From Methanomassiliicoccaceae archaeon (GTDB taxonomy: Archaea; Thermoplasmatota; Thermoplasmata; Methanomassiliicoccales; Methanomethylophilaceae): a DNA stretch of 64,000 bases. A program made the translations under genes and the position numbers. The first letter of the stretch is position 1, and each line of letters starts with the position of its first letter. Below the pieces are notes generated by a model. It worked only from the letters and a program-made list of their open reading frames with translations, was not told where the DNA came from and did not search any database. The DNA lies in contig JAYFOZ010000002.1 in NCBI GenBank assembly GCA_034928305.1, forward strand, positions 310,001-374,000, given 5' to 3'. Below are positions 52,254 through 62,462 of the stretch, one piece after another.

Positions 52254-53174
52254 GTGATAATCTGCGCCAGCAGACGTACAGATATTCCTGCATTTCATTC
52301 GGAATGGCTGATGAACCGGCTCAGGGCAGGCTATGCCATGGTGCGTAACCCAATATGCGACAATGTCGTCTACAAGGTCGACCTCGACCCCAGGAGCGTA
52401 GGGTGTCTTTACTTTATTTCTAAAAATCCCAAACCCCTTCTGCCCTATCTTGAAGAGATCGAAGGAATGGGATACAGCATCATCTTTCAGATCACTATGA
52501 CGCCATACGGTAAAGAGATCGAACCAGGCGTTCCCGACAAAGCATCAGTGGCAGACGCTTTCAGGGAAATATCCGAAAGATTCGGGAGCGACCGCACGAC
52601 GTGGCGCTATGACCCGGTCATAATCGACGAAAGATACAATATGAGATATCATGAAAGAAAGTTCAGGCTCCTTTGTTCCGAGCTTTCAGGGTACACCGAC
52701 AGATGTATCTTCAGTTTTCTCGATATGTATCCAAAGTTCGAGGAACTCAAAAGTACCAGATCACTCGCTTCCTCATCTCCTTTGCAGAGGGAGGACTTTA
52801 TGAGGATGATGGGCCCGATATCGAAAGAGTTCGGCATTCAGGCGAGCCTCTGCTGTTCATCCCGCGGATATCCGGAGTACGGGATCGATGGACGGGGATG
52901 CATAGACCGCGAAACAATGATATCATTGGGCATTCCGTTCGAGGACGTCTCCGGCAACATAAGGGACGGTTGCAGATGTGTCAAGAACATCGATATCGGT
53001 GCATATGATACATGCATGCACAACTGCGTTTATTGTTATGCGAACCGCATCACCCCGGATAAACGCGCGTCTAAGGAATACGACCCGGAGTCCGAGATGC
53101 TCTACGGGAAGGTGAGGGAGACGGATACCGTTACCGATATCACAGACAGACGTTCACGCATCACTGATTTCTGA
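52254..53174 (+). CDS. DUF1848 protein (radical-SAM-like)
   Basis: The 306-residue protein opens with CASRRTDIPAFHSEWLMNRL, the DUF1848 signature, and has FQITMTPYGKEIEPGVP, TWRYDPVIIDERY, and a C-terminal cysteine cluster GCRCVKNIDIGAYDTCMHNCVYCYAN. The closing C-x3-C-x2-C resembles the [4Fe-4S]/SAM motif, though at an unusual position at the C-terminus. Function unknown; it lies beside alkylation-repair genes, divergent from ogt. A GTG at 52254 starts it. Confidence 0.8.
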   Translation: MIICASRRTDIPAFHSEWLMNRLRAGYAMVRNPICDNVVYKVDLDPRSVGCLYFISKNPKPLLPYLEEIEGMGYSIIFQITMTPYGKEIEPGVPDKASVADAFREISERFGSDRTTWRYDPVIIDERYNMRYHERKFRLLCSELSGYTDRCIFSFLDMYPKFEELKSTRSLASSSPLQREDFMRMMGPISKEFGIQASLCCSSRGYPEYGIDGRGCIDRETMISLGIPFEDVSGNIRDGCRCVKNIDIGAYDTCMHNCVYCYANRITPDKRASKEYDPESEMLYGKVRETDTVTDITDRRSRITDF

Positions 53175-54122
53175 ACCGATCTCCTTATGCATACGCTTCT
53201 TCGAGAACATTACCGAGTCCATGAAGATGACCCAGCTTATCTCGACTACAATAGAGGTTGCAATCGCGACCATGGCTATGCCTGCGGCAGGCCCCATCGT
53301 CGCCGCGCACATTGCGATAGCGATCCCTTTGTTGCGGTAGGATACCATCAATACATCGGTAACGCGCTGATGCCAGTTGATCCCGGCCCTCTTCTCAGCG
53401 TACTCTACTCCCGTCCCCAGGGCGAAGGTCCTCAGGCCCGCTATGATCACGAATAAGAAGAGGGGAGTGAACTCGCGCGGGAAGTTGGTCGAGCTTACCG
53501 ACAGTATAACAAGGAACGAGATGAAGAGATTCATCATGATGGACATGGTATCTCTGCTGATCTTCACCTTGGTAAGCAGTCTTGACAGTACCAACGGGAC
53601 ACCGATAATCTCCAGGACGGTTATTATCACATCTGTCATGTCTACTGTCTTTCCCAATGTGATGTAAATTATGAAGGGGATCCAGAGAAGGGATGCTACG
53701 TATACGAGTATGGTGCCCCTCGCGGCGTGCTCCATGTCCCCCCTCAATATGTAAGAGAGCGGGGCGACCGAAGCTGCAAACGGAGCCGCGGCCACAAATA
53801 CCAGACCTACGGAGTACGGGCCCCAGGACGTGTCCTTCATAAGCAGATAGCCTGCGATCGGGGTCGCGGCCGCCACTACAAGTCCAAGAAGCAAAGCTCT
53901 GGTGACCGAGCGGCCGTTCTTGACAGGGTCCAGATTTTTATAGGGGATACGGGAGAGCGAGATGGTCAGCATGACCGCAAGCACAAAAACCGTGAGGTCG
54001 CTTCTGATTTCTGGAACCAATATGTCCCCGGGAAAATAACCGGACAAATTCAGCAACAGTGAAAAAACCAGTGCAACAGACATCACGATGGCGCTGCTTG
54101 CGAGAACCTCCTTTGCCCTCAT
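53154..54122 (-). CDS. Bile acid:sodium symporter-family transporter
   Basis: The 322-residue protein has about nine to ten membrane segments and the pattern of the BASS/ACR3-like superfamily: SYRNKGIAIAMCAATMGPAAGIAM late in the chain and VGLVFVAAAPFAASVAPLSYIL in the middle. It probably exports or imports an organic anion with sodium. It lacks the Cys of arsenite carriers in the APC position (here AAPFAAS), which argues against arsenite. It converges on the DUF1848 gene with a 21-base overlap. Confidence 0.75.
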   Translation of the reverse strand: MRAKEVLASSAIVMSVALVFSLLLNLSGYFPGDILVPEIRSDLTVFVLAVMLTISLSRIPYKNLDPVKNGRSVTRALLLGLVVAAATPIAGYLLMKDTSWGPYSVGLVFVAAAPFAASVAPLSYILRGDMEHAARGTILVYVASLLWIPFIIYITLGKTVDMTDVIITVLEIIGVPLVLSRLLTKVKISRDTMSIMMNLFISFLVILSVSSTNFPREFTPLFLFVIIAGLRTFALGTGVEYAEKRAGINWHQRVTDVLMVSYRNKGIAIAMCAATMGPAAGIAMVAIATSIVVEISWVIFMDSVMFSKKRMHKEIGSEISDA

Positions 54123-54174
54123 AGAGGACTGTCAAAGTTAACGTTATGTAAAAGGATTGCGTACGAGTTGAACT

Positions 54175-55092
54175 ATGGCGAAGGCTGCGCCCGTGAAAGC
54201 GGGATGGTACAATGCATTCAGACCCTGGACGTTGCACGGGGCAGTGGTCCCGGTGGTCCTGGGAGGCATCGTAGCGTTCAAGGACGGCTTCTTCAACTGG
54301 TGGATATTTTTGCTGGTGCTCGCCGGAGGGATACTGCTCCAGTCAGCCGCGAACCTTCTGAACACGTACGGCGACTTTGTCAAAGGAACGGACACAGAGG
54401 AGAACCATTCGCGTTCTCCCGAGCTGGTTTCGGGAAAAATGAGGCCCAAGCAGATATTCGGTGCCGGATTGGCATGCCTGGTCATCACGGCGCTGATAGG
54501 CATCGTGTTCATATGGTATATCGGATGGGGGATCCTGGCATTCGGAATCCTTGGAATACTCGGAGCAGGTTCTTACACCCTCGGCGTTGCTTACAAGTAC
54601 AAAGCGCTGGGTCAGATAAGCACTTTCTTCCTGATGGGCATACTTATGCCGGCAGGAACATACTATGTCATGACAGGAACCGTCACGTTGGAAGTAGTCC
54701 TACTGGGTCTTCCCAATGCTTTCACCATAACGGGAGTTCTCAGCGGAAACGAGACGAGGGACTATCATAGCGACAAGGAGGCCGGAGCAGGGACGCTGTC
54801 CGGGCACATGACCTACGAAGGTTCCCTGAAATTCTATAGGACGATAAATGCGTTGTGCTACCCGGTTCTGGCCATGGTTATAATCATCGGCGCTGTCCCG
54901 TGGACCTGTGCTTTGGGCTTTGTTGCGCTGATAGACTATCGCAGTCTGTACATTAATTCCAGGAGGGCCCCCGAGGACAAGAGGTCCAGCTTCATGCTGG
55001 TACCAGAGGCGTTCATCCACAATTGGCACCTCGGTGCGTTGCTCGCGATAGGTTATTTAATGGGAGTATCGGTTGTTCCGGGGCTGATTTGA
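54175..55092 (+). CDS. UbiA-family prenyltransferase (MenA-like)
   Basis: The 305-residue membrane protein has about eight to nine helices and the two Asp-rich prenyl-diphosphate motifs of the UbiA family: NLLNTYGDFVKGTD near residue 62 and NETRDYHSDKEAG near 192. The N-terminal WYNAFRPWTLHGAVVPV is typical of MenA. It attaches a polyprenyl chain to an aromatic ring. The gene overlaps a UbiE-type methyltransferase, which suggests synthesis of a membrane-soluble redox carrier or a related lipid. Product unknown. Confidence 0.85.
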   Translation: MAKAAPVKAGWYNAFRPWTLHGAVVPVVLGGIVAFKDGFFNWWIFLLVLAGGILLQSAANLLNTYGDFVKGTDTEENHSRSPELVSGKMRPKQIFGAGLACLVITALIGIVFIWYIGWGILAFGILGILGAGSYTLGVAYKYKALGQISTFFLMGILMPAGTYYVMTGTVTLEVVLLGLPNAFTITGVLSGNETRDYHSDKEAGAGTLSGHMTYEGSLKFYRTINALCYPVLAMVIIIGAVPWTCALGFVALIDYRSLYINSRRAPEDKRSSFMLVPEAFIHNWHLGALLAIGYLMGVSVVPGLI

Positions 55093-55838
55093 TGGACAAA
55101 GAAAAACTGGGTAATCAATTCGACGGCAAGGAAGTTTACGTCAAGGACGTTTTCACCGAGATCGCGTCGTACTACGACGAGATGAATGGCATCATGTCCA
55201 TGGGAATGATCAAGCGCTGGCACAATTTCATGATGAAGAAGCTCGGGAACCTCGAGGGGAAAAGATGTCTCGACGTAGGTACGGGAACGGGAGAGATCGC
55301 GTTCCTGGTTGCCGAGAAAGCCGTAGGCGGAGAGGCGGTCGGATTGGACATCACCCCGGCCATGCTCGAGCTAGCAAGGAAGAAAATGACAGATATGGGG
55401 ATCACAAACATCGAGTTCGTGGTCGGGGACGCGCTGGACATACAGATGCCCGACGGGACGTTCGATGCTGTCACATCAGGATACATGCTCAGGAACGTCA
55501 CCGATATTCCGAAAGCGGTAAGCGAGATGTACAGGATGCTCAGGGTAGGCGGTAAGTGTGTCGTCGCAGAGCTTGCAAGGCCGAGGAGCAGGCTCGTCCG
55601 CCCGTTCTACAATTTCTATATGAACCGTATAATTCCCCATTACGGTCGTAAGTACGACAAAGGCCAGAATATCGACGGGAGACAGCCTGCCTATGATTGG
55701 CTGACATCTTCCATAGAAGGTTTCCCGTACGGCGATGCGATGGTCGAGATATTCCGCAATGCAGGGTTCAAAGACGCCAAATGTTACGTAAAGACGTTCG
55801 GTGCGGTCAACATCTACGTTGCGTCCAAAGAAAAATAA
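55092..55838 (+). CDS. UbiE/COQ5-type methyltransferase
   Basis: From the ATG at 55092, overlapping the previous stop (TGATG), the product has 248 residues. FTEIASYYDEMNGIMSMGM is the UbiE opening, CLDVGTGTGEIAFLVAEKA the SAM-binding motif I, and SGYMLRNVTDIPKAVSEMYRMLRVGG the diagnostic middle. It would C-methylate a prenylated ring, most simply the product of the adjacent prenyltransferase. A GC-rich hairpin ends the transcript. Confidence 0.88.
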   Translation: MDKEKLGNQFDGKEVYVKDVFTEIASYYDEMNGIMSMGMIKRWHNFMMKKLGNLEGKRCLDVGTGTGEIAFLVAEKAVGGEAVGLDITPAMLELARKKMTDMGITNIEFVVGDALDIQMPDGTFDAVTSGYMLRNVTDIPKAVSEMYRMLRVGGKCVVAELARPRSRLVRPFYNFYMNRIIPHYGRKYDKGQNIDGRQPAYDWLTSSIEGFPYGDAMVEIFRNAGFKDAKCYVKTFGAVNIYVASKEK

Positions 55839-60098: not shown

Positions 60099-60542
60099 TC
60101 AACAAAATAATTTCTTTTTATCGAACTCGGAGGGGTCGAGGGCCTGTTTCAAGCTCTCCTCAAGGGCCCTTATTCTTCGATCTATTTCACCGATCACGAC
60201 TCTAAAGAATTCATCCCCTCTGCCTGTCGGATCCTCTAATTTCCAATCCTGGATTATCTCGGCCTGCACATAGGGGCATGATACATCGCATCCCATCGAT
60301 ATTTTCACATCCACTTCAGGGAGCTCATCCACAGATTTTGGATGCTGGGTCTTTTCCATGTCTATGCCGTATATTTCCTTTATCAGTCTTACGGCGTCCT
60401 TGTTTATACCATGGCCGATCTCCGTTCCTGCAGAATAACTTTCGAAGACATCCTTCGCATAATATTTCCCGAGAGCTTCGGCAATCTGCGAACGGCACGA
60501 GTTGTGTATGCATACGAACGCAACTTTCGGCTTATTGTTCAT
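60099..60542 (-). CDS. arsC: Arsenate reductase (LMW phosphatase type)
   Basis: The 147-residue protein has the phosphate loop VAFVCIHNSCRSQIAEA with the nucleophilic Cys and Arg, further cysteines in SMGCDVSCPYV, and the family end region. It reduces arsenate to arsenite for export by the Acr3 protein of the same operon. It lies 13 bases after arsM. The similar protein at 10.9-11.3 kb is a paralogue with a broken start. Confidence 0.92.
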   Translation of the reverse strand: MNNKPKVAFVCIHNSCRSQIAEALGKYYAKDVFESYSAGTEIGHGINKDAVRLIKEIYGIDMEKTQHPKSVDELPEVDVKISMGCDVSCPYVQAEIIQDWKLEDPTGRGDEFFRVVIGEIDRRIRALEESLKQALDPSEFDKKKLFC

Positions 60543-60555
60543 TTATGGATCTCCT

Positions 60556-61389
60556 TTATTCTTGTTTTTTCGCTTCGATAATATATGATGCGACGAAATC
60601 CTCAGAATTCCTTCCTGACTCCCAGCTTTTGATTATTTCTCTGCTGTTGTCCTTCGGCACTAAACGTATGTTGACGAAACCCGCTTTCTTTAAAATAATC
60701 TCGAGGTCGCCTACATACTCCGCACCCGCGATACAGTTGGAGATGCTGGCCAGATCGCCCTTCACGCTTTCAGGTATCTCTGCCGTTGCCACTACATCAG
60801 ATATCGAAAGCCGCCCGCCTTTCCTCAGCACTCTGTACGCCTCGTTGAACACAAGCTGTTTATCTAACGACAGGTTGATTACGCAGTTTGATATGATCAC
60901 ATCCACCGAGCTGTCTGCGACGGGAAGATGTTCAATCTCTCCCAAGCGGAATTCTACGTTGTCGAATCCACTTTTCTTTGCGTTATTTCTTGCCAGTTTA
61001 ATCATTTCCGGCGTCATGTCGACCCCGATCACTAAACCTTTATCTCCAACCTTTCTCCTTGCCAGGAATGAATCGAAGCCTCCTCCGCTTCCAAGATCCA
61101 GAACGGTCTCGCCCCTTTTCAGCGAAGCTATCGCGATAGGATTCCCGCACCCGAGCCCCATGTTCGCCTCCACAGGTATGCCCTCGAGATCTTCTTCCGA
61201 ATAACCCATAATCAGGGACGCGCCTTTAATATCCACCAGGGGGCTGCAGCTGAAACCTCCGCCGCAACATCCCTTGGATCCGCTACGGGCGACATCCGAA
61301 TAGTCCTTTCTTATCGATTCCCTGATTTCTTCCTTGTCGTTCATATCATTTTCATCCTTTGTTCCAATCGTGTCAGTAAAATATCTCAT
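60556..61389 (-). CDS. arsM: Arsenite S-adenosylmethionine methyltransferase
   Basis: The 277-residue protein has KGCCGGGFSC near the N-terminus, the SAM motif VLDLGSGGGFDSFLA, and Cys residues in GLGCGNP, ISNCVINLS and ISNCIAGAEY, matching the As(III)-binding cysteines of ArsM. It methylates arsenite to methylated and volatile forms. The ATG at 61389 overlaps the acr3 stop (ATGA); an ATG 15 codons later is an alternative. It is the third gene of arsR-acr3-arsM-arsC. Confidence 0.93.
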   Translation of the reverse strand: MRYFTDTIGTKDENDMNDKEEIRESIRKDYSDVARSGSKGCCGGGFSCSPLVDIKGASLIMGYSEEDLEGIPVEANMGLGCGNPIAIASLKRGETVLDLGSGGGFDSFLARRKVGDKGLVIGVDMTPEMIKLARNNAKKSGFDNVEFRLGEIEHLPVADSSVDVIISNCVINLSLDKQLVFNEAYRVLRKGGRLSISDVVATAEIPESVKGDLASISNCIAGAEYVGDLEIILKKAGFVNIRLVPKDNSREIIKSWESGRNSEDFVASYIIEAKKQE

Positions 61390-62462
61390 GAACCGGTTTT
61401 AATATCGTCCCCGCAATCTTGCGGGAATTTGTTCTTGGTCTTGTTTACGATCTTCACGAGCAATAACATCACCGGCACTTCGGTCAGGACTCCCACGGTG
61501 CAGACGAGCACGACCGGAGAGGCCGGGCCGAACAGAGCTATTGCGACCGCAACCGAAAGTTCGAAGAAATCAGATGCTGCGATAAGGGAGACCGGAGCAG
61601 CGATTTTGTGGGGCTGTTTGGTCCACATGGACAGTCCGTATGTCAGGCCCCAAGAAATGATGTTCTGAAGTATCAGCGGAACCGCGATCAACAATACATA
61701 CAGAGGCTGGTCCAATATGACATCGCCCTGGAATGAGAATATCAATACGAGAGTCAGCAGAAGGCCAACGCTGGTTATTCCGCCGAATTTTGGAACAAAT
61801 TTACTGTTAAAGAATTCAATTCCCTTCTTTCTTATCATTCCGAAACGGGTTATCGCGCCTGCGACCAACGGTACAACTACGAACAGTACGACCGAGAAGG
61901 CCAGTGTTCCCCAGGGCACCGTGACATTGTTTATTCCCAGCAGCAGCTGCACCAACGGGATGAACAGTACCAGGATGATGAGGTCGTTTATGGAGACCTG
62001 CACAAGAGTGTATGCCGGGTCCCCTTTGGTCAGGGCACTCCAAACGAAGACCATTGCGGTGCAAGGTGCCACCCCCAGTAGGACGGCTCCGGTGACGAAG
62101 TCCTGTGCCAGTTCCGTCGGTATCAGCGGTCTGAATATTATCATAAAAAACAGCGTGGCGAGCCCGAACATCAGGAACGGTTTTATTCCCCAGGTGCTCC
62201 CGGTGGATATGATGATGGCTTTAGGATGCTTCTTTACTTTCTTGACGGATTGAAAGTCGATCTTCATCATCATCGGGTAGATCATGAACCATATCAGAAT
62301 TGCGATCGGGATGTTTATGCCTGCGATTTCCATTCCTTCCAAAAAGTCGGGAACCGCAGATACATATTTTCCTACAAGTATCCCGGCGGCCATACAAAGC
62401 AGGACCCACAAGGTCAGATACTTTTCAAAAACACCGATATCAGATTTTTTTTCATCGCTCAT
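61386..62462 (-). CDS. acr3: Arsenite efflux protein Acr3
   Basis: The 358-residue protein has ten predicted helices and the ACR3 signature LLGVAPCTAMVFVWSALTKGDPAYTL with the essential Cys, plus VPLVAGAITR and ASDFFELSVAVAIALFG. It expels arsenite using the membrane gradient. It follows arsR by 33 bases and overlaps arsM by four. Confidence 0.95.
   Translation of the reverse strand: MSDEKKSDIGVFEKYLTLWVLLCMAAGILVGKYVSAVPDFLEGMEIAGINIPIAILIWFMIYPMMMKIDFQSVKKVKKHPKAIIISTGSTWGIKPFLMFGLATLFFMIIFRPLIPTELAQDFVTGAVLLGVAPCTAMVFVWSALTKGDPAYTLVQVSINDLIILVLFIPLVQLLLGINNVTVPWGTLAFSVVLFVVVPLVAGAITRFGMIRKKGIEFFNSKFVPKFGGITSVGLLLTLVLIFSFQGDVILDQPLYVLLIAVPLILQNIISWGLTYGLSMWTKQPHKIAAPVSLIAASDFFELSVAVAIALFGPASPVVLVCTVGVLTEVPVMLLLVKIVNKTKNKFPQDCGDDIKTGS

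Follow-up and report, generated by a model that had tools for sequence, protein, structure and literature searches.

The menA-ubiE locus

The window analysed here is a stretch of 64,000 nucleotides from a Methanomassiliicoccaceae archaeon (bases 310001-374000 of contig 2; genome of 1.34 Mb). Two adjoining genes on its + strand encode a UbiA prenyltransferase of the MenA type (54175..55092, 305 aa from an ATG start, with the Asp-rich motifs NLLNTYGDFVKGTD and NETRDYHSDKEAG) and a C-methyltransferase of the UbiE/MenG type (55092..55838, 248 aa counted from its ATG at 55092, with the SAM motif LDVGTGTG). The preliminary description had placed a MenA-like prenyltransferase and a UbiE partner at 54175-55838, and both open reading frames were indeed found there, with the stop of menA and the start of ubiE overlapping by one base (TGATG). 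The mechanical ORF of ubiE begins at a TTG upstream of the ATG at 55092. When a 10 kb part of the window was put through simple shuffling 200 times, no ORF was longer than 274 aa (median 151), a length that MenA exceeds and that UbiE on its own does not reach.

Divergent from menA, on the - strand, lies a gene for a membrane transporter of the SBF/BASS family with an ASBT fold (53154..54122, 322 aa), which is co-inherited with the pair across the family. The 52 bases between the two divergent starts (54123..54174) presumably serve as a shared regulatory region. An arsenic cluster is present about 4-5 kb from the pair (60099-62462, - strand); its arsenite methyltransferase (339.9 bits, cut-off 263) and ACR3 efflux transporter (343.3 bits, cut-off 282.8) passed their models, and its arsenate-reductase-like protein scored under its cut-offs. 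Because some genes came out fused or divided in the mechanical ORF calls, neighbourhood clusters derived from these calls were taken as leads only. A neighbour that lies on the same strand in two genomes and resembles HtpG in sequence was dropped.

Conservation of the gene pair

A MenA match at 1e-10 was detected in 99 of the 147 genomes of the order. Clear orthologues were confined to the family of the window (f1), where 80 of 102 genomes carried one at 50-92% identity, counting truncated copies at the ends of contigs; the 19 remaining matches in the order were distant (22-30% identity). Orthologues of UbiE were found in 79 of the 102 family genomes. The nearest named records were metagenome-assembled genomes of Methanomethylophilaceae and Methanomassiliicoccaceae, with MenA identities of 86-92%, in agreement with the order named in the preliminary description. 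Both genes lay on one contig in 75 family genomes, and in all 75 they were on the same strand and 2-97 bases apart, indicating that the pairing is beyond chance. Exceptions to pairing on one contig were genomes in which a contig end intervenes (G124, G089) or the genes are on different contigs (G115, and G027, where a second MenA piece adjoins UbiE); in G028, UbiE is found on a separate contig, at base 66424. In-frame TGA codons had been flagged in the menA of nine relatives. At the five loci checked (L012, L018, L027, L029 and L031) the flag was the normal terminal stop before ubiE, and G043, G034, G110 and G094 were left out of this check.

Viral contigs yielded no close relative in one pattern scan. 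MenA relatives were present in 27 plasmid records, all below 60% identity and at 25-31% in the 12 listed. In G030 (genus g5) genes for a 2-oxoacid:ferredoxin oxidoreductase precede the MenA-UbiE pair on the same strand (L050:6576-11588), in a stretch that holds no SBF gene.

Families f5 and f6 contain a second, divergent UbiA type, which formed a group of its own in a UbiA protein tree (11 rows, support 100/99). Branches of this tree were very long, those of L168, L051 and the lipid-type UbiA among them, and only the separation of the 11-row type was used. This type adjoins UbiE in at least four genomes (G014, G018, G020 and G146), and it also occurs in three f1 genomes that lack the type of the window (G026, G105 and G109). 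No SBF match was found at 1e-3 in the 18 stretches around divergent UbiA genes (0/18). A second UbiA match was present in genus g8, G056 and G060. The f5 genome G016 has a third, divergent MenA-MenG pair beside a DtxR-type regulator and a heavy-metal-domain protein (L051:7630-9245), the MenG of which passed the demethylmenaquinone-methyltransferase equivalog (271.2 vs 235 bits).

Identity of the two enzymes and the likely ring

MenA matched PF01040 (2.2e-34) and narrowly passed the NCBIfam menA equivalog TIGR00751 (104.9 vs 102.15 bits), scoring under the cut-offs of the PRK06080 DHNA-polyprenyltransferase models. UbiE matched PF01209 (3.3e-58) and passed the UbiE/MenG subfamily model TIGR01934 (207.7 vs 158.35 bits), narrowly missing the equivalog NF001244 (206.5 vs 216 bits). 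The Asp-rich motifs of MenA are conserved, and its structural model (pLDDT 80.1, from 14 sequences) adopts the UbiA fold with both motifs. A phmmer search returned UBIAD1 as the only PDB chain that matched MenA at E <= 0.1 (1.1e-20), and Foldseek placed UBIAD1 at the top for the model (E 4.2e-8, TM 0.69/0.75), followed by DGGGP synthase (4.6e-6) and then by other UbiA structures. Since UBIAD1 is the sole relative of MenA by sequence among solved structures, a naphthoquinone appears likelier than a phenazine. The vitamin-K branch of the UbiA proteins is indicated alike by profile scores, sequence match and model, and a naphthoquinone-type acceptor for MenA is favoured. The preliminary description had named methanophenazine or a quinone as the product; on this evidence the quinone side would stand, and a phenazine is less likely.

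A second UbiA protein is encoded elsewhere in the genome of the window (C2:165247-165996, a matched stretch of 250 residues). PRK12884 'prenyltransferase' led its matches at 175 bits, followed by a model for geranylgeranylglycerol-phosphate geranylgeranyltransferase at 164 bits; both scores are under cut-off, and DHNA-polyprenyltransferase models gave at most 28 bits. For MenA of the window, the heme O synthase model reached 23.8 bits (cut-off 210.3), and no DGGGP model was among its 11 NCBIfam matches at E <= 0.001.

Markers of ring synthesis

The search for a ring-forming route covered two markers, MqnA/D (PF02621) for the futalosine route and MenD (PF16582) for the classical route. MqnA/D was over its cut-off in none of the 147 genomes of the order, in which three sub-threshold matches were seen, but 132 of the 340 genomes drawn as a sample of the phylum exceeded it. 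MenD was over its cut-off in none of the 102 family genomes, with two sub-threshold matches, and in 6 of 14 controls. A complete menaquinone pathway by either route is thus without its marker in the family genomes. Ten Thermoplasmata stretches around MqnA (L143-L152) in turn held no match to MenA or UbiE at 1e-4. The ring could come from some other pathway inside the cell; in view of the missing markers of the known routes, we consider it most likely that a ring precursor would be imported by the linked transporter of the ASBT fold.

A transporter gene inherited with menA

The transporter matched PF01758 (34.6 bits, cut-off 24.3) and did not reach the narrower bass subfamily TIGR00841 (23.4 vs 326.3 bits). 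Its model (pLDDT 79.0) has the ASBT fold, and all 25 fold matches at E <= 0.001 were bacterial homologues of bile acid symporters or NTCP, with 12-18% identity to solved bile acid transporters. Among the 102 family genomes MenA was present in 80, UbiE in 79 and SBF in 77; MenA and SBF occurred together in 77, MenA alone in 3, SBF alone in none and neither in 22 (Fisher p 1.9e-19, a value that ignores relatedness). The three genomes with MenA and without SBF (G029, G030 and G102) are 79, 79 and 66% complete. When the count is restricted to family genomes with completeness of 90% or more and contamination of 5% or less, SBF and UbiE are each found in 40 of 45.

In 63 genomes the SBF gene is found upstream of menA at a distance of 22-974 bases, divergently in 58 and on the same strand in 5. 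The latter 5 belong to genus g13, where SBF precedes menA with gaps of 22-32 bases in 5 of 6 genomes and is divergent in the sixth (G115). The two genes are 3.3-99 kb apart on one contig in 4 genomes and on different contigs in 10, some of which may be assembly breaks. SBF also lies beside MenA in Methanoplasma records (L059, L065), one of them named reticulitermitis, which we take to be from termites.

In a tree of 60 genomes built from FpoD, H, L, M and N, MenA changed state 5 times and SBF 6 times, with about 4-5 joint changes. Across four well-supported independent pairs, SBF followed MenA in 3.9 on average (sign test p 0.125); without G106 three pairs remain (p 0.25), and the pairs are too few for p to reach 0.05. 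G106 is the only MenA-bearing genome of genus g11 and is nested among relatives that lack MenA; its module sits at the start of contig C88, so that either a regain or a binning error is possible. G042 was counted among the 22 genomes with neither gene and left out of the tree counts. As its UbiE lies at a contig start, MenA and SBF of G042 are probably in an assembly gap. Judged from co-inheritance and linkage, the SBF transporter belongs with the menA-ubiE pair. We found no statement among the open-access papers searched that links an SBF transporter to MenA-UbiE in methanogens.

Chain-making genes in the fpo operon

In the genome of the window the Fpo operon (L123) runs from fpoA to fpoN and continues with a polyprenyl diphosphate synthase gene and a gene for a geranylgeranyl-reductase-like protein (L123:16535-18593, on C2 of the same genome). 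FpoH was identified by PF00146, the synthase by PF00348 and the reductase by TIGR02032 (193.9 vs 158.8 bits); names of the other Fpo subunits were assigned from sequence and gene order. A higher-scoring geranylgeranyl reductase (225.4 bits) is encoded elsewhere in this genome. Of 60 Fpo stretches, 45 contained fpoN, synthase and reductase together, on one strand in every case, and ten of these 45 came from genomes without MenA. Four of the other 15 had no fpoN match, and several had a weak one or ended soon after it. No synthase followed fpoN in the remaining 3.6 kb of G037, 3.8 kb of G057 and about 1.7 kb each of G060 and G025; in G038 a synthase begins about 3.6 kb past fpoN and runs off the edge of the stretch.

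In all 43 readable sequences of the fpo-linked synthase, Ala stands five residues ahead of the first Asp motif; the pattern is missing in 2 of 45. Those two (L103 and L122, from G073 and G082) are 31-36% identical to the synthase of the window's genome. A small residue at this position of polyprenyl synthases permits longer chains. The other polyprenyl synthase of the window's genome has Phe there, matches GGPP synthases best (227.6 bits) and sits in what we take to be a mevalonate cluster. Against PDB sequences the fpo-linked synthase scored 171.3 bits with polyprenyl, 162.9 with hexaprenyl and 158.7 with GGPP synthase. Among NCBIfam models the short-chain IdsA gave the highest score (232 bits, below the cut-off of 468), so a long chain is no more than a possibility.

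The His and Tyr of FpoD that we take to be the quinone-binding residues of complex I were kept in 58 of 59 sequences (one gap) and 59 of 59, respectively. Since they are kept in MenA-bearing and MenA-lacking genomes alike, these residues do not show the product of MenA to be the ligand. Two candidates for genes that track MenA were rejected: FpoH does not follow it, and at least two PF00348 matches were found in 18 of the 22 genomes without MenA, which removes the second polyprenyl synthase. Because the synthase and reductase of the fpo operon are kept where MenA is absent, they may also serve another prenyl product.

In two relatives of 99% completeness, G038 and G056 (the latter with 4% contamination), MenA, UbiE and SBF are all missing and Fpo is kept, with the same FpoD residues as in their MenA-bearing relatives. 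G038 has one UbiA match, like the lipid type in score and length, and G056 has two. The module is therefore dispensable, and not essential to this way of life. Relatives of this kind offer natural controls.

Proposed pathway and its alternatives

The pair, we propose, forms part of a menaquinone-type pathway in which a ring precursor taken up from outside is given its prenyl chain and its methyl group; we assign this reading a probability of roughly 45%. MenA would join a polyprenyl chain to a ring like 1,4-dihydroxy-2-naphthoate, and UbiE/MenG would methylate the ring to give a lipid like vitamin K2. The second polyprenyl diphosphate synthase, encoded in the fpo operon, would probably supply the chain, which might be partly saturated by the adjacent geranylgeranyl-reductase-like protein. 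The ring precursor may be supplied by neighbouring microbes. As the chain genes lie in the fpo operon, the product would most likely be a redox partner of the Fpo-like complex. Such a carrier might connect Fpo with heterodisulfide reduction, a putative link in view of G038 and G056, which keep Fpo and lack the module.

That the two genes make a prenylated redox carrier, as the preliminary description suggested, is the best reading of the pair, and its outline had already been published: under the heading 'Liposoluble electron transporter synthesis', Borrel 2014 (PMC4153887, Table 6) enters ispA, ubiA and ubiE for 'Ca. M. alvus', with electrons from the Fpo-like complex. New here are the linkage to SBF, the missing markers of ring routes, the choice of ring based on UBIAD1, and the fpo operon's own polyprenyl synthase and geranylgeranyl reductase; apart from the choice of ring, none of these features had been noticed in the preliminary description. 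A broader claim, on which we would not bet, is that gut methanogens of the Methanomethylophilaceae are quinone auxotrophs that import, by a dedicated ASBT-fold transporter, a naphthoate-type precursor given off by other gut microbes; MenA and UbiE would finish it to a menaquinone-like lipid for use by the Fpo-like complex. If it were true, a supposed bile-resistance gene would be an importer of vitamin K precursors, and methane formation in the gut would depend in part on quinone cross-feeding, which would join the factors that limit methanogens living on methanol and methylamines in ruminants, humans and termites. For energy conservation in the Methanomassiliicoccales two models compete, a membrane carrier (Borrel 2014) and direct contact of Fpo and HdrD (Lang 2015, as cited in PMC7374477). 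A module of three genes that includes a transporter, in genomes where no ring pathway is recognised, makes the choice between them accessible to feeding experiments.

The ring of the carrier may instead be made in the cell by an unrecognised route, for example as a phenazine (methanophenazine-like) or another aromatic, with SBF doing another job. We regard this as unlikely, although it is a serious competitor. According to PMC6315138, the methanophenazine route of Methanosarcina is unidentified and UbiA and UbiE homologues are expressed there. A ring made in the cell would also fit the chain genes in the fpo operons of MenA-bearing and MenA-lacking genomes, and the divergent UbiA-UbiE pairs of f5 and f6 together with the lack of SBF around divergent UbiA genes. 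However, the nearest profile, sequence and fold matches of MenA are naphthoquinone enzymes, and the co-inheritance of SBF with MenA is left unexplained.

Another possibility, which we likewise consider unlikely without finding it far-fetched, is that a prenylated quinone-like lipid is made for a purpose other than energy conservation, such as redox protection or another oxidoreductase, and that electrons pass directly from Fpo to HdrD. Fpo is kept in genomes that lack MenA, and direct transfer has been put forward in parts of the literature that bear on this order: a review (PMC7374477, which cites Lang 2015) models it as an assumption for M. luminyensis, and PMC10804542 notes that HdrE is missing in the order and suggests it. 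PMC10804542 and PMC4153887 report that HdrE/cytochrome b, the acceptor of reduced methanophenazine, is absent, and in PMC5011839 methanophenazine is suggested to be absent from ISO4-H5. Against a use apart from Fpo stand the location of the polyprenyl synthase and reductase genes within the fpo operon, and the conserved His and Tyr of FpoD, though these residues are found with and without MenA.

The transporter might also serve bile tolerance or carry an unrelated anion, merely lying beside menA and being kept by the same gut-adapted lineages; this seems to us decidedly unlikely. A 2021 paper (PMC7883539) found 14 clusters to be enriched in the clade of host-associated Methanomassiliicoccales; one of them, annotated as a bile acid:sodium symporter (IPR002657, COG0385), is interpreted there as bile resistance and is probably the same gene as the menA-linked SBF. 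The SBF model does have the fold of a bile acid transporter, and the tree shows too few joint changes of MenA and SBF to reach significance. However, the two genes are kept together even where they are separated in the genome and are absent together, SBF is mostly the first gene of a same-strand cluster in genus g13, and identity to solved bile acid transporters is low, as given above. SBF lies beside MenA in the Methanoplasma records, including the one named reticulitermitis, and to our knowledge insects make no bile acids.

The preliminary description had also raised a role of the prenyltransferase in tetraether lipid or heme-like pathways, and such a role, in DGGGP or heme synthesis, is very improbable and was set aside: the protein shares the UbiA superfamily with those enzymes and DGGGP synthase ranks second in Foldseek, but the genome has a separate UbiA that matches lipid-type models, the heme O synthase score is far under its cut-off, and we know of no place for a UbiE/MenG partner in either pathway.

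Comparison with known systems

The closest precedent is the pair in 'Ca. M. alvus' and 'Ca. M. intestinalis', for which PMC4153887 gives consecutive accessions for ubiA and ubiE, with ispA of M. alvus two after fpoN. Section 11 of that paper does not bring in the SBF transporter, the missing ring pathways, the reductase of the fpo operon or strains that lack the pair.

For the enzyme itself, the best comparison is UBIAD1, the MK-4 synthase (PDB 8djk, 8djm), which has the motif N-x-x-x-T-Y-x-D-F in common with MenA of the window. UBIAD1 differs in being eukaryotic, in having about 22% identity to MenA, and in that it is not known to work with a MenG partner. For the transporter, the best fold matches of the model were ASBT_NM and related BASS transporters (PDB 8oyf, 3zux and 8oyg, the last with pantoate), and these bacterial structures are 14-18% identical to the menA-linked SBF.

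The methanophenazine system of Methanosarcina resembles the present proposal in combining an Fpo-type complex with a prenylated carrier. Unlike Methanosarcina, Methanomassiliicoccales are reported to lack FpoF, FpoO and HdrE in PMC5011839, PMC10804542 and PMC4153887, and the enzymes of the window would fall in the naphthoquinone branch.

A partial pathway that consists of MenA and MenG only is known in quinone-auxotrophic bacteria. As described in PMC10746273, L. plantarum and group B Streptococcus use exogenous DHNA or the quinones of their neighbours, so that organisms without a ring pathway draw on outside precursors or quinones for electron transfer. The system proposed here differs from these bacteria in that it belongs to an archaeal methanogen and has a candidate SBF transporter for the putative uptake.
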